Source: Acetobacterium sp. | GTDB lineage: Bacteria > Bacillota > Clostridia > Eubacteriales > Eubacteriaceae | Direction of reading: 5' to 3' | DNA: 64,000 nt | Assembly: GCA_028692885.1 (NCBI GenBank) | Contig: JAQUWM010000008.1 | Location: 1-64,000 of the forward strand | In this document: positions 20,387 to 47,090 of the stretch, piece by piece | How positions within the stretch are numbered: the first letter of the stretch is position 1 | How the letters are laid out: the number at the start of each line of letters is the position of its first letter | Position numbers and translations under genes: made by a program | Notes under the pieces: generated by a model | Seen by the model: only the letters and a program-made list of their open reading frames with translations | What the model was told of the DNA's origin: nothing | Databases searched by the model: none

Positions 20387-23371
20387 TTAACGAGCACCCT
20401 TTAACTGGTTATCATATTTTTTTGCTTCCTCAATTTTTTTCTGCAAATTGAGAATTTCTTTTGTGAGTTCCGCTCGCTCTGCTGAAAATTCAAATTCCGG
20501 TAATCCCAGATAATAGCCCTGGCCAAAATCGACTGCCATTTCAATCACCGTTGCCAGATCCTCCGGTGTTTCAATTCCCTCAGCAACAACCAAAACACCC
20601 TTGTTATGACAGAAGTCGACCAGATTCGCGACCAGATTTCGCTTGTCGATATTATTGTGAATACCCTGAATCATCTCCATGTCAATCTTGATAATATCCG
20701 GCCGCAGGGCGAGAATCCGGATCTCATTGGAATAACCACTGCCAAAATCATCCAGTGCAATCTGCATCCCATTATTTTTGATATGATCGACTTTTTTTGA
20801 TAAATTCTCAGCATTACGACTATCTTCTTCAGTGACCTCGATGACCACATTTTTAAAATAGTGACTATAGCGAGATTTGATTCTATCAAAATCCTCATCA
20901 CTCAACTTTTGACTGGGGATACTGTTGATAAATATTTTCCGATTTCCAATCGCCTCTGAGCAAGCTTCAATCGCCTCAAATGCCATCAACATGATCATCC
21001 GCTCCAATTGCCCCAGTTTGGACTGAGCTGCTGCCACGGTCAAAATCTCTGTGGGGTTTCTAAAATTATCCAGCAATGGTCGCATTAGTGCCTCATACCC
21101 GATCACTTCACCAGTTTTTAAATCAACAATCGCTTGGAAAGCAAAGCGAATCAGCTGTTCATCCAGTAGACGGTTGATGGCTTCGCGATTTTCGAGCAGG
21201 TAGGACATTTTTTGATAATATTCGCAATTGAATTCAAACAACCGTCCCTTTTCCTTATGCTTTGCCTCATACATCGCAAAATCTGACATCTTCAGTAAAT
21301 CCATTACATTATTGGCATCCTGGGGATACCAGGCAACGCCGGCGGAAAAACGGATTCGGCTTTCACTGCCGTCTGGCGTTGTCAGGAAAAAAGACTCACC
21401 GTAGGGGTACAGGTTGGTGATCAAATTTCGAGGTTCTTCCTGATTATCGTACCCATGGATATAAATGGCAAACTCATCTCCTGAAATTCGCGAGACAATT
21501 CCACCAAATTGTTCAAAATACCTGAATATCTCACTAGCCCGGATGATCAACCGATCCCCCACGTCATGACCAAAATTATCATTGATGTATTTCAGATTGT
21601 CCAGATCAATAAAGATCATTGCCCCTATTTTATTGGGCTTTTCTTTAATGCTTCGACTCGCCTCCCGCTTCAAAGCGGTATTGCTGAATAGTTTTGTCAG
21701 CGCATCATAATCCAGCTCATTGGTTAACCGGTGTTTTTCTTCGATGTCCTCAGTTACGTCTTGAATAACTCCCACCACACCGGTTGGCGACTTGGCTTCC
21801 AGAATCCTTAACCACATCTGTTTCTGGGTATAATCGTCATAGTAATCGTAAATATTCTCCTGACCACTTAAGGGTTTTTGGGTCAGCTTTTCAAAATATT
21901 TCTGCCAGTCTTCTTTGAGAATCAGACTGCCCGGATCGAGGTGCAGCAACCAATATAAAAAATCGGTGAGAATCACATATTTGTTGCTGTTCATTACTTC
22001 ATAACCACCGATCGGCAATAAACTTAGTTCCAGTATTTTTGATGTCGTTTTTGAGACATTCACCAGGCTTTGATTCAACAACTCCACAGCTGAGGTTAAA
22101 TCATCAATCTCCCGCATTCCGGTTGGTTTAAAATTAATTTCATCATAGGGCGAAAGTTCCTCGACATATTTTGACAGTCTGGAAATCTTTCGGGTAAAAA
22201 AGTAAACCAGAACAAAAACTGCTGTAAAAGCCAGGGTAGTTGTCAACAGAACGCTGTAAAGCAAATTGGCTCTGACCGATGCTGAGTTTTCAGACAATAC
22301 ATCACTGGGTACAAAACAGACCAAGGTCCAATTTTGATCGACAAAGGGTGAATTCTCACTATAGACCTTCAACTCCCGGGCCGAACCAACCATTGATCCC
22401 AAATCATCCAGTTTTGTTTCAAAAACCCCTTCATCCTTTTGTTCTTTTAATTGTAGCTTTTCGCCGTTTTTTAGGTAAGTCTTGGCCAGAACGCCACTCG
22501 GAATAAACCAGTCAAGATCCAATACCTGATCGTTCATTCCCGCAATCACATAAAAACTGTTATGATACAGAAGATCCGAGTCTGGCAGATAGGCTTGGGA
22601 AAAATAGGGCAGATCAATCTCAATGCCAACGACCCCATAACCATTGCCGTCCTCATCCAATATCGGCATCGTGTAGCAAACCACCTGCTGATTGTCCTTG
22701 AGCAGGTCCTGTGGCGTTGACCAATAGCCATAGCGTTCTATTTCAGAACCTTTAAATTCATGACTTGCCCAAATTGGTTTTTCATAAAAATCAAAATATC
22801 CGGTCTCCCCTTCGGAGCGCATATCCAAATTCCATCGAATGCTGGTTGCCATGGTGTATTGTCGGGAAACCGCCATCGGTCCAATTTCCAACAATAAGCT
22901 CGGTGCCTCGCTGTTATTTGGGGTTGAGTTTCTGATATATACAGCCGAATGGGCAGACGTATCCGACTTGTTTGAATTGGATCCATTTAAAACAAAAAAA
23001 GCGCCAGTAACCCGATTCTGTTTTAATATAGAAACCAGTGTGTCACTCGCCATCAGCGCTGCCTCATTATAGGCGGCATCATTAAGATAGATACTTTCTG
23101 GCGTGGCACCCTGATTTTTCGCTACTAAAATCAGTTCTGAATTTAATCTTTCTGTCTCCTCGGCGATCTCTTCAATCGTCTGACCAATTGATCCATTGAA
23201 GGTCTCCGTTCGGGTTTTAGTAGTATTGTTCAGCAGCCGGATGGCTTCTGCATCCAACATGAAAAACACCTGAGATACCCATAGAGCCGATATTAAGGCA
23301 AGGCTTTGAAAGATAACAATCAGTGCCAGTAAAATATTTAGCTGTTTTCGGAGTGTCCAGGTTTTTTTCAT
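20387..23371 (-). CDS. Membrane Cache-GGDEF-EAL protein (c-di-GMP turnover)
   Basis: N-terminal TM and extracellular Cache-like region; RISGDEFAIYI (GGDEF), YEALMRP and LDDFGSGYSN...KIDMEMI (EAL). Confidence 0.93.
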   Translation of the reverse strand: MKKTWTLRKQLNILLALIVIFQSLALISALWVSQVFFMLDAEAIRLLNNTTKTRTETFNGSIGQTIEEIAEETERLNSELILVAKNQGATPESIYLNDAAYNEAALMASDTLVSILKQNRVTGAFFVLNGSNSNKSDTSAHSAVYIRNSTPNNSEAPSLLLEIGPMAVSRQYTMATSIRWNLDMRSEGETGYFDFYEKPIWASHEFKGSEIERYGYWSTPQDLLKDNQQVVCYTMPILDEDGNGYGVVGIEIDLPYFSQAYLPDSDLLYHNSFYVIAGMNDQVLDLDWFIPSGVLAKTYLKNGEKLQLKEQKDEGVFETKLDDLGSMVGSARELKVYSENSPFVDQNWTLVCFVPSDVLSENSASVRANLLYSVLLTTTLAFTAVFVLVYFFTRKISRLSKYVEELSPYDEINFKPTGMREIDDLTSAVELLNQSLVNVSKTTSKILELSLLPIGGYEVMNSNKYVILTDFLYWLLHLDPGSLILKEDWQKYFEKLTQKPLSGQENIYDYYDDYTQKQMWLRILEAKSPTGVVGVIQDVTEDIEEKHRLTNELDYDALTKLFSNTALKREASRSIKEKPNKIGAMIFIDLDNLKYINDNFGHDVGDRLIIRASEIFRYFEQFGGIVSRISGDEFAIYIHGYDNQEEPRNLITNLYPYGESFFLTTPDGSESRIRFSAGVAWYPQDANNVMDLLKMSDFAMYEAKHKEKGRLFEFNCEYYQKMSYLLENREAINRLLDEQLIRFAFQAIVDLKTGEVIGYEALMRPLLDNFRNPTEILTVAAAQSKLGQLERMIMLMAFEAIEACSEAIGNRKIFINSIPSQKLSDEDFDRIKSRYSHYFKNVVIEVTEEDSRNAENLSKKVDHIKNNGMQIALDDFGSGYSNEIRILALRPDIIKIDMEMIQGIHNNIDKRNLVANLVDFCHNKGVLVVAEGIETPEDLATVIEMAVDFGQGYYLGLPEFEFSAERAELTKEILNLQKKIEEAKKYDNQLKGAR

Positions 23372-23650
23372 GGCAATTTCCTTATCAACGATTTCTTTTT
23401 ATGCTGCTATTTTTTATTATCGGCAATTTCCAGCTTAAAAAACTGTTAATGCTGACGTGTTTGTTATCAATATTTTAGCAGAGGTTTGTCTTAATGAAAA
23501 GAACTATTCCGAAAATGAGGGTGATTCTTCAATTTTGTTTAATTGCTTTATCCTATCGATTTCTATTCTTCCGTCAACTTTTAACTAAGACCTTTAATTG
23601 CTAGATAAGTCGAATTAAAGATTTTTGTAAATCAAACTAGCAATTGCGCA

Positions 23651-23695
23651 GTGTACGAGCGAGGGTCTGACCCCTTGATTATCACGGATCGTCCC
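23651..23695. repeat. Dispersed 45-bp intergenic repeat, copy 1
   Basis: GTGTACGAGCGAGGGTCTGACCCCTTGATTATCACGGATCGTCCC; 37/45 identical to 29018-29062. Confidence 0.8.
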
Positions 23696-23762
23696 TTGTT
23701 AAATATTTAATTGAACGTATATACACTATTTTTCAATCTGATTTGATCAATTTACTACAAAT

Positions 23763-24336
23763 AAAAAAACGCTACCCATTTTTAAGTGGCGTTTGTGAAT
23801 CAATAACAAGACTAGAGCCGATTCCACATTTTATTCTGTAGAACCGGCTCAGTCCAAAATCTCTGTTGTCATCCGTTTGGATTCCTCCTATTGATTTTTT
23901 ATCAAAAATCTTCTTTTTCACTTTTCAATGTAAATTTGATCAACCGTTGTGTTACTTTTAAGATTTGTTTTGTTTTATACTCACCAGATGCTTATTTACT
24001 TGATTTTTTACTTGTTATTTTTGGTTGAGAACGTTTTCTCATTTCCAACTTTTCTTTGGATCTGGCTTTTAGAAGCCGTGAAAACTTTTCTTACTTCATT
24101 CAATATCGTTCAGCGATCGTTCATTTAATTCTTGTGAGTTTACCTGCATTTCCTAATTTCATCTGAATCTGTTTTTTGTTCAAATTCTTCTTGCCGTTAA
24201 TTTAATTGATTCTTCCTTATCCAGTTTTTACGCCGGTTCTGGTTGTTTCTCTTAATCTAATTGGCTGGTTGACTCATTTTTACTTTTCAATGATCGGGAT
24301 CATTAATTATGAAAAGAATTAGGTGATCTTTGATTT
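23763..24336 (-). ncRNA. Candidate ~570-nt non-coding RNA
   Basis: ORF-free interval with its own promoter, several perfect small hairpins, a long GAGCCGGTTCTAC/GTGGAATCGGCTC stem and a terminal hairpin followed by T7. Confidence 0.55.
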
Positions 24337-24342
24337 AGTTAT

Positions 24343-24370
24343 ATTATAGCACCTTTTAGAAATAAGTAAA
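24343..24370 (-). promoter_or_regulatory. Promoter for the candidate ncRNA
   Basis: TTTACT-16-TATAAT on the minus strand. Confidence 0.6.
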
Positions 24371-24380
24371 TAGTTTTTTT

Positions 24381-24432
24381 GTAAACGTTTGTATTTATCT
24401 TGTGAATTAAGATAACCACAATGTAAACGTTG
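24381..24432. promoter_or_regulatory. Two GTAAACGTT sites 42 bp apart flanking a TTATCTT-7-AAGATAA inverted repeat
   Basis: GTAAACGTTT 24381-24390, TTATCTTGTGAATTAAGATAA 24395-24415, GTAAACGTTG 24423-24432. Confidence 0.5.
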
Positions 24433-24545
24433 TGCTGACATGCGGTATCAGTGATCGGCTTTTCTTAAATCAACTTTTATTTTAGGAATTATTATGCTTT
24501 TATACCCAACCTTAACCGTCGCAGCATTCTTGCTTAACGCCACAG

Positions 24546-25472
24546 TTAATCTAAAAAAGCCCGCTTCAATGCATCAACTCGCCTGATTAAGCTCCCTTTC
24601 ACAATTTCGCTTTTTTCTGCTATTTCAAACCCATGGATGGTCCCTCTGGTCTGGTTCAATTCTACAAAAACCCTGCTTTCTTGCAGCGCTTCGGTGAAAA
24701 GAATCCCTTCGTCACGGAGACAGTCAAACTCCGCGACTTCAACATAGGCGGCCGGCAGGTTGTCAAAGGATGTCGCTTCCATCGGGGAAGCGTAGGCCTT
24801 GTCGCAATGGCTCTGATCGCCTAGATAAAGTTGCCACATTTTTTGATTCTGTCGCGCATTCCAAAGCGGTGTATCGACAAATTCCTTGATCGAAGCGGTG
24901 ATCTGGCGGGCATCGGTAACAGGATAGATGAGCATCTGAAAGCAGATTTTTTGCGCCTTTCGATCCCTGGCCATCAGACAGACTGCTGCCGCCAGGGCTC
25001 CACCGGCACTGTCACCCCCGACTGCAATTCTTTCTGGATCAACGCCGATTTCTTTGCCCTGTTGATAGACCCATTCAAAGGCGGCATAACAATCTTCCAC
25101 CCCAACCGGGAATGGATGTCTGGGTGCCAACCGATAATCAACAAACACGACCTTGCAGGGGGTTCGTTTGGCATATTCACAGATCAAATACTTATGAAAG
25201 GCGGCTGACTTCAGTACGAAGGCTCCACCATGCAGATAGATCAGGCAGGGCAGCGGTTCCTCGATGTCTTCCGGTTCATAAATAATGATCTCAACCGGTT
25301 CATTTTGATAACCAGCGATTTTTTTTCTGATCTCACGGATGCCGGGCTCGGGTGCGCGCTTGTTGAAACTTCGTTCAATGATGCCATTCATCAGCGGCAA
25401 TAAACCGGGCGATATGGGTGTTTTTATCTTTTCATATTTTTTGAAATCCGGATGAATTGGATATTTCGTCAA
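24546..25472 (-). CDS. Alpha/beta hydrolase (HSL-like esterase/lipase)
   Basis: HGGAFVLKS oxyanion motif and GDSAGGALAAAV nucleophile elbow. Confidence 0.92.
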   Translation of the reverse strand: MTKYPIHPDFKKYEKIKTPISPGLLPLMNGIIERSFNKRAPEPGIREIRKKIAGYQNEPVEIIIYEPEDIEEPLPCLIYLHGGAFVLKSAAFHKYLICEYAKRTPCKVVFVDYRLAPRHPFPVGVEDCYAAFEWVYQQGKEIGVDPERIAVGGDSAGGALAAAVCLMARDRKAQKICFQMLIYPVTDARQITASIKEFVDTPLWNARQNQKMWQLYLGDQSHCDKAYASPMEATSFDNLPAAYVEVAEFDCLRDEGILFTEALQESRVFVELNQTRGTIHGFEIAEKSEIVKGSLIRRVDALKRAFLD

Positions 25473-46994: not shown

Positions 46995-47090
46995 CATCTC
47001 CGATAATAGCAAACCTGATGAAAGTCAGGGACGCAAAGCCACGGGTCTAAGGCATTTTGCTACGACAGCCGGGTTGCCGAAGAGGGCGCA
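46995..47090 (+). ncRNA. c-di-GMP-I (GEMM) riboswitch
   Basis: ATAGCAAACCTGATGAAAGTCAGGGACGCAAAGCCACGGGTCTAAGGCATTTTGCTACGACAGCCGGGTTGCCGAAG matches the GEMM core (GCAAACC, GAAA tetraloop, GGGACGCAAAGCC, CTAAGG, GCCGGGTTGCCG). Confidence 0.95.

Follow-up and report, generated by a model that had tools for sequence, protein, structure and literature searches.

What does an intergenic interval encode when it holds no credible protein gene and its minus strand reads like a transcription unit? The interval in question (23372-24545) lies in a 64,000-nt stretch of an Acetobacterium contig, the whole of which we call the window, between genes for a GGDEF-EAL protein (20387-23371) and an alpha/beta hydrolase (24546-25472), the only two neighbours to which Pfam was applied. 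A preliminary description, made from the letters alone, had proposed a single structured non-coding RNA of ~570 nt with its own promoter and terminator. Sequence comparison supports a structured RNA gene with both signals, and amends the rest: the locus is very probably one copy of a multi-copy family whose members run from 260 to ~1100 nt, and it is probably not purely non-coding, given a seven-codon ORF near its 3' end.

The locus and its predicted parts

No ORF of at least 60 aa exists on either strand of 23372-24545, so the absence of a credible ORF noted in the preliminary description held, and a decayed protein-coding gene, which it had named as one of the findings that would refute it, was not seen. 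The 574-nt minus strand folds beyond chance (z = -5.9 against 100 dinucleotide shuffles), and purines make up 63% of the RNA (A 46%). The parts that we assign to the locus are collected in Table 1. The start of the transcript near 24336 is inferred; its end probably lies near 23803, since the long stem is the conserved terminator of the family. The first U-tract of the window copy is broken (CTTGTTATT), and for this reason the AAACGC hairpin beyond it looks like a backup terminator of this copy, not a family feature.

Table 1. Features of the RNA gene in the window, in order of transcription after the gene itself
Feature	Position	Strand	Basis
RNA gene, predicted transcript ~534 nt	23803..24336	-	blastn homologues and paralogues, fold z = -5.9, alignments
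Family-specific promoter element TACAAACGTTTACA, near-palindrome, LacI/cre-like, immediately upstream of -35	24380..24393	-	kept in aligned copies
Promoter TTTACT-16-TATAAT, extended -10 (TGC)	24343..24370	-	site scan and conservation in homologues
Long-range closing helix P1, 5' strand AUCAAAGAUC	24325..24334	-	cognate versus permuted pairing, z = -9.9
Second long-range segment, 5' strand UUCUUUUCA	24310..24318	-	duplex in cognate-pairing test
5'-module hairpin AAUGAUC-CC-GAUCAUU	24289..24304	-	in most copies, not all
Variable A-rich interior domain	23930..24288	-	alignable only between orthologues
Interior hairpin GGCUU-CUAA-AAGCC	24064..24077	-	compensatory changes among orthologues
Second long-range segment, 3' strand UUGAAAAGUG	23919..23928	-	cognate-pairing test
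P1, 3' strand GAUUUUUGAU	23901..23910	-	cognate-pairing test
Shine-Dalgarno site AGGAGG	23884..23889	-	anti-SD pairing across 97 homologues
Seven-codon ORF ATGACAACAGAGATTTTGGACTGA (MTTEILD, then stop)	23849..23872	-	length, stop, synonymous excess
Intrinsic terminator stem, contains ORF end and stop codon	23810..23854	-	covariation
Backup terminator hairpin AAACGC..GCGTTTTTTT	23763..23794	-	without counterpart in aligned homologues

A promoter-like site is, on its own, unremarkable, with 6 such sites found in our scan against 4.3 expected. We count the promoter as evidence because its region is kept in all 38 homologous copies, where the family form reads TTTACx-N16/17-TATAAT; for the apparent A. 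woodii copies, start sites are predicted just before AAATCAAAG, an inference made without transcript data. Preceding the promoter in Acetobacterium copies is TACAAACGTTTACA, one step from a cre/LacI-type operator and nearly private to the family: when we compared site positions with homologue positions, 20 of the 23 sites with at most one mismatch in four Acetobacterium genomes lay at family promoters.

Is the RNA a leader of the gene that follows? Its neighbouring genes, judged from ORFs read by eye, vary between copies, and the next downstream gene is convergent in several contexts (L003/L006/L009, L037/L032/L045, L048, L039, L040, L042); the consistent co-directional downstream gene expected of a leader or riboswitch is absent, the downstream genes being unrelated. 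Because the neighbours differ and several contexts have a convergent gene next, we infer from sequence context a stand-alone, trans-acting RNA and not a leader. As to the surroundings in the window, the gene directly downstream (20387-23371, minus strand) encodes 994 aa, with a GGDEF and an EAL domain plus a dCache match that is only weak, and is not a constant neighbour of the family; a c-di-GMP-I riboswitch (Rfam RF01051, 85 bits) occupies 46998-47081 on the plus strand.

A family with variable interiors and conserved ends

In blastn searches of the locus's own genome and 40 relatives, most genomes of its genus yielded relatives of full length with 67-87% identity; the searches also returned paralogues that have only the 5' and 3' modules in common, with an unalignable middle. 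A covariance model of the 3' module places copies in 18 of 19 Acetobacterium genomes, mostly 4-8 in each, the exceptions being one fragmentary genome with a single copy and another with none; several other genera of Eubacteriaceae have 1-3 copies. The core motif is also present in named records of A. dehalogenans, A. wieringae, A. fimetarium, A. bakii and others. In G009, apparently A. woodii, minus-strand copies lie at ~2713156-2713730, ~2715469-2715999, ~2379701-2380160 and ~538912-539345. A second model (R2), built with sequences that the first had found, extended the membership and placed single outliers in two more families of the order (G029, G039); its matches weaker than ~1e-6 were counted only where the Shine-Dalgarno-ORF module was visible by eye. 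Between species, copies keep their synteny and can be aligned from end to end, and we consider it very likely that they form a multi-copy, chromosomal RNA gene family of Eubacteriaceae.

Beyond this range the signal fades. Phylum-wide covariance-model matches at E 1e-3 to 1e-5 (L125-L133) were mostly plain terminators (the L125 locus stops at a contig end, and its match was left out of that inspection), and the plasmids, phages and viral contigs searched gave no family match. The preliminary description had not recognised OLE, ROOL, GOLLD or HEARO, and this held: the Rfam 15 covariance models (including these, raiA, 6S and tmRNA) gave no match at the locus at E up to 5, and on ten divergent homologous loci only two weak chance matches far below the gathering score.

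Two structures carry the family. The terminator stem shows two-sided changes in 14 of 16 pairs, against 6.4 in shuffles, and 94% of its cells are paired, against 27-53% when the strands are slid. The other is P1, in which the RNA 5' end, A(A)AUCAAAG..., pairs with a strand ~15-25 nt before the Shine-Dalgarno site. Cognate strands from 31 representatives pair at -14.8 kcal/mol, and permuted ones at -10.1 +/- 0.5 (z = -9.9); none of 20,000 permutations did as well, a reversed-strand control gave z = 0, and 14 of the 31 representatives pair best with their own strand over any other. A few copies in which the regex promoter finder was wrong were filtered out of this test. Divergent copies keep P1 with other letters (AUCAAAAAUCAAUG/CAUUGGUUUUUGAU in L074, UCAAUAAAUC/GAUUUAUUGA in L150). 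RNAalifold found no consensus for the 5' module alone, because its conserved partner strand lies in the 3' module. We regard both P1 and the terminator structure as very likely real.

All motifs listed in the preliminary description were confirmed where it had placed them, and conservation and covariation in relatives, the lack of which it had named as refuting, were both observed. Its promoter reading is supported by conservation. Among its hairpins, AATGATC-CC-GATCATT is kept in most copies, with a clean deletion in one ortholog group; for GGCTT-CTAA-AAGCC, covariation is limited to close orthologues, among which the compensatory variants GG..CC and GA..UC occur (alignment columns 290-304); GAGAA-AACG-TTCTC (24027-24040) is poorly conserved; and GATTTTT-GATA-AAAAATC (23893-23910) competes with a far better conserved long-range helix. 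Two roles were amended: the long GU-containing stem (23815-23850) is the conserved terminator, and the terminal AAACGC..GCGTTT-T7 hairpin, taken as the terminal structure, is no family feature. Support is best for the terminator stem and for the long-range helix between the 5' and 3' ends, and weaker for most of the small hairpins.

Between the ends lies an A-rich interior of 60 to ~950 nt, which varies between paralogues and is conserved among orthologues. Over 22 copies, interiors are on average folded slightly more stably than shuffled sequence (mean z -1.9), and some k-mers are modestly enriched (AGTAA, 45 versus 24; GGATGA, 15 versus 3.4), from which we draw no conclusion. Outside Acetobacterium an interior hairpin keeps its loop AGCAUAUAGAG[AU]C constant while its stem changes in sequence, and 11 of 13 genomic matches to the GCAUAUAGAGAC hairpin fall inside family RNA genes, the other two looking like chance occurrences in coding sequence. 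The hairpin with its covarying stem was seen in L069-L072, L074 (twice), L075, L078, L143, L150, L217 and L136.

Some members depart from the common form. The smallest (L137-L139, L153, L215) measure ~260 nt and carry MQTEPKN; they would suit structural studies. At L140 (G047:C47:26803 and 27166), and also at L075, a tandem pair of RNA genes occurs, with a separate promoter for each. The second gene begins with GTGGTACCGCG, which is the same as the T-box core motif; in L075, a search with Rfam at E up to 1 gave no T-box. The outliers L145 and L257 (G039) and L081 (G029) have the same 3' module (MTSEYNT, MTSKYST and MTSEIKN, respectively) and an interior motif, GAUUURGGAAGUAAGC, in common; DNA searches from L145 and L081 added only L257, other matches being apparently protein genes or unrelated. 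Solo or decayed Shine-Dalgarno-ORF-terminator modules were seen at L151 (~2068-2176), L152, L208, L209, L210, L213 and L212; one of them (MTMEKRS) immediately follows a protein gene, several lack a start codon and one is fused to the promoter.

The seven-codon ORF

All full-length copies have, at their 3' end, a Shine-Dalgarno site followed by an ORF, almost always of exactly seven codons, whose stop codon sits in the terminator stem. The preliminary description had listed AGGAGG and MTTEILD as one item among many; the ORF proves to be the most constant feature across genera. It is present in all 38 blastn copies, three of which our first script missed and which were recognised by eye. Among 107 distinct covariance-model hits the script accepts 97 (92 with seven codons, four with eight and one with ten) and two more were added by eye, giving 94 ORFs of seven codons and five of 8-10; the other eight hits are mostly solo modules or remnants, and in four related solo 3' modules (L208, L209, L210, L213) the start codon is lost. 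R2 was built from ORF-containing modules and favours ORF-like matches, a bias from which the 38 blastn copies are free.

Is this ORF read? In the scripted set of 97 all three stops are used (TAG 35, TAA 32, TGA 30), and on the tree the stop has changed at least 14 times, never to a sense codon. Counting single changes over a minimum spanning tree of the 68 distinct seven-codon ORFs, we found 28 synonymous to 33 non-synonymous changes in codons 2-5, against 16 to 43 expected (p = 0.0013), with no synonymous excess in frames +1 and +2. Codon 4 encodes Glu in 58 of the 68, and an in-frame 3-nt insertion gives MTTEEILD, while the genera differ widely at residues 2, 3, 5, 6 and 7 (MTTEILD, MLTESER, MKPESER, MQTEPKN). 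Upstream, anti-SD pairing averages -10.8 kcal/mol against -8.5 when shuffled (97 homologues), the function of the Shine-Dalgarno site being retained despite sequence change. Selection for translation, acting on frame, length and stop, is the likely reading; translation itself is inferred.

Ribosome tethering, its rivals and known systems

Why would a long structured RNA end in so short an ORF? We propose that the transcript would start near 24336 and that its 5' end would pair with the strand ahead of the Shine-Dalgarno site, P1 thereby closing a structured domain of variable size, followed by a fixed 3' module of Shine-Dalgarno site, seven-codon ORF and intrinsic terminator with the stop codon in the base of its stem. 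A ribosome would load at the Shine-Dalgarno site and, by analogy with mccA, translate the mini-ORF repeatedly without leaving, and would thus be parked against the terminator hairpin at the RNA 3' end. The parked ribosome would stabilise the RNA and tether the folded domain to ribosomes, the domain acting in trans, and the A-rich, pyrimidine-poor body would allow a long untranslated transcript to escape Rho. The parked ribosome is proposed because of the mccA precedent, a gene of seven codons with a strong Shine-Dalgarno site and an adjacent terminator: ORFs of 2-8 codons undergo reiterative translation without ribosome release, ~71 rounds in vitro, and for mccA the ribosome-bound terminated RNA accumulates (PMC6495379). 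In a Firmicute with runaway transcription, purine-rich transcripts escape Rho (PMC13323073).

We hold this proposal tentatively. Tethering as the role of the mini-ORF rests on analogy with one E. coli gene, without transcript or footprint data, and is less likely than not; the whole explanatory chain from family to tether, in which transcription, translation and function are all inferred, we likewise judge slightly more apt to fail than to hold. Counting against the tether, a ribosome near a terminator represses termination in E. coli, where transcription and translation are coupled (PMC4824070). In Bacillus the two processes are uncoupled, and under uncoupling a stop codon inside the terminator could merely be tolerated, a further point against the tether. 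A bolder reading, which we offer only as a possibility, is a class of minigene-anchored RNAs, in which an obligatory seven-codon ORF fused to the terminator would be translated reiteratively, with the ribosome permanently attached; ribosome occupancy might then be the working state of an RNA that either regulates while tethered to a ribosome or serves to park one, with a single dedicated promoter element in control.

The main rival, and one that remains possible, is that the gene serves to make the heptapeptide, as a signal, an inhibitor or, like MccA, a precursor, and that the long RNA is an mRNA for it, structured in its 5' part. The strict seven-codon length, strong Shine-Dalgarno site, prevalence of Glu at codon 4, synonymous excess and mccA precedent (PMC6495379) all favour it; against it, the remaining residues after the first vary widely between genera, the C-terminal Asn needed by MccB occurs in only 13 of 68 distinct ORFs, no constant neighbour gene could serve peptide modification or export, and the conserved 250-1000 nt structured 5' domain is left unexplained. 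Could the RNA instead be purely structural or regulatory, its Shine-Dalgarno site only binding the 16S rRNA 3' end and its ORF an accident? The helix evidence (P1 and the terminator) needs no translation, but the use of all three stops with no sense codon in their place in full-length copies, the in-frame insertion and a synonymous excess confined to one frame make this unlikely.

Less likely still is a cis-acting attenuator, in which a ribosome on the mini-ORF would disrupt the overlapping terminator and permit read-through into the downstream gene. The stop codon does lie in the stem, which a ribosome would open, E. coli terminators near a stop codon are repressed (PMC4824070), and in the window the next gene, GGDEF-EAL, is co-directional; however, the next gene is convergent in several distinct contexts, downstream genes are unrelated, and the window copy has a second terminator ahead of the next gene, so that we consider attenuation very improbable. 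Multiple copies with conserved ends and a variable middle would also fit a decayed gene or a small MITE-like mobile element, but these readings are all but excluded by synteny between species, full-length alignability, compensatory changes, the lack of any match in the plasmids, phages and viral contigs searched and the absence of a large ORF.

Large structured RNAs and small-ORF RNAs are both known kinds. The family resembles OLE, ROOL, GOLLD, HEARO and raiA in being several hundred nucleotides long, stand-alone or intergenic and elaborately folded, and differs from them in that no Rfam family matches it, its conserved core is smaller, its interior varies, a mini-ORF is obligatory at the 3' end and 4-8 copies occur per Acetobacterium genome. 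With mccA it shares exactly seven codons, a strong Shine-Dalgarno site, a terminator directly after the ORF and a small RNA ending there (PMC6495379), whereas it has no MccB-type partner beside its copies, no conserved C-terminal Asn, a long structured 5' domain and many stand-alone copies per genome. Membership of the microcin C family was rejected on the Asn count (13 of 68) and on neighbouring mccB, of which none recurs (neighbouring ORFs were inspected by eye, with Pfam applied to no more than the two neighbours in the window). RNAIII/hld, SgrS/SgrT and SR1 are regulatory RNAs with a short ORF and a Shine-Dalgarno site. The family is like such dual-function sRNAs in that its ORF is likely under selection as coding sequence, but their peptides have tens of residues, whereas the family's seven codons lie at the extreme 3' end and overlap the terminator. 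The Lactobacillus plantarum supermotifs (LPSMs) are also large, multi-copy, intergenic structured elements of one lineage and unknown function (PMC5643018); they differ in measuring 800-1000 nt and being confined to L. plantarum, and no mini-ORF is mentioned in that paper, a likeness and difference with no sequence comparison behind them. We found no description of an RNA family with an obligatory seven-codon ORF fused to its terminator in the literature searched, the coverage of which was incomplete.

If the mini-ORF works as proposed, the family would unite large RNAs of unknown function with release-free minigenes and would offer dozens of natural variants for testing minigene translation without ribosome release; if the heptapeptide is the product, few known conserved genes would be smaller. 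Several such genes are present in nearly all the Acetobacterium genomes examined, apparently including that of the model acetogen A. woodii, for whose strain DSM 1030 (reference CP002987) dRNA-Seq, RNA-Seq and Ribo-Seq data exist (PMC8407422; ENA PRJEB33460).
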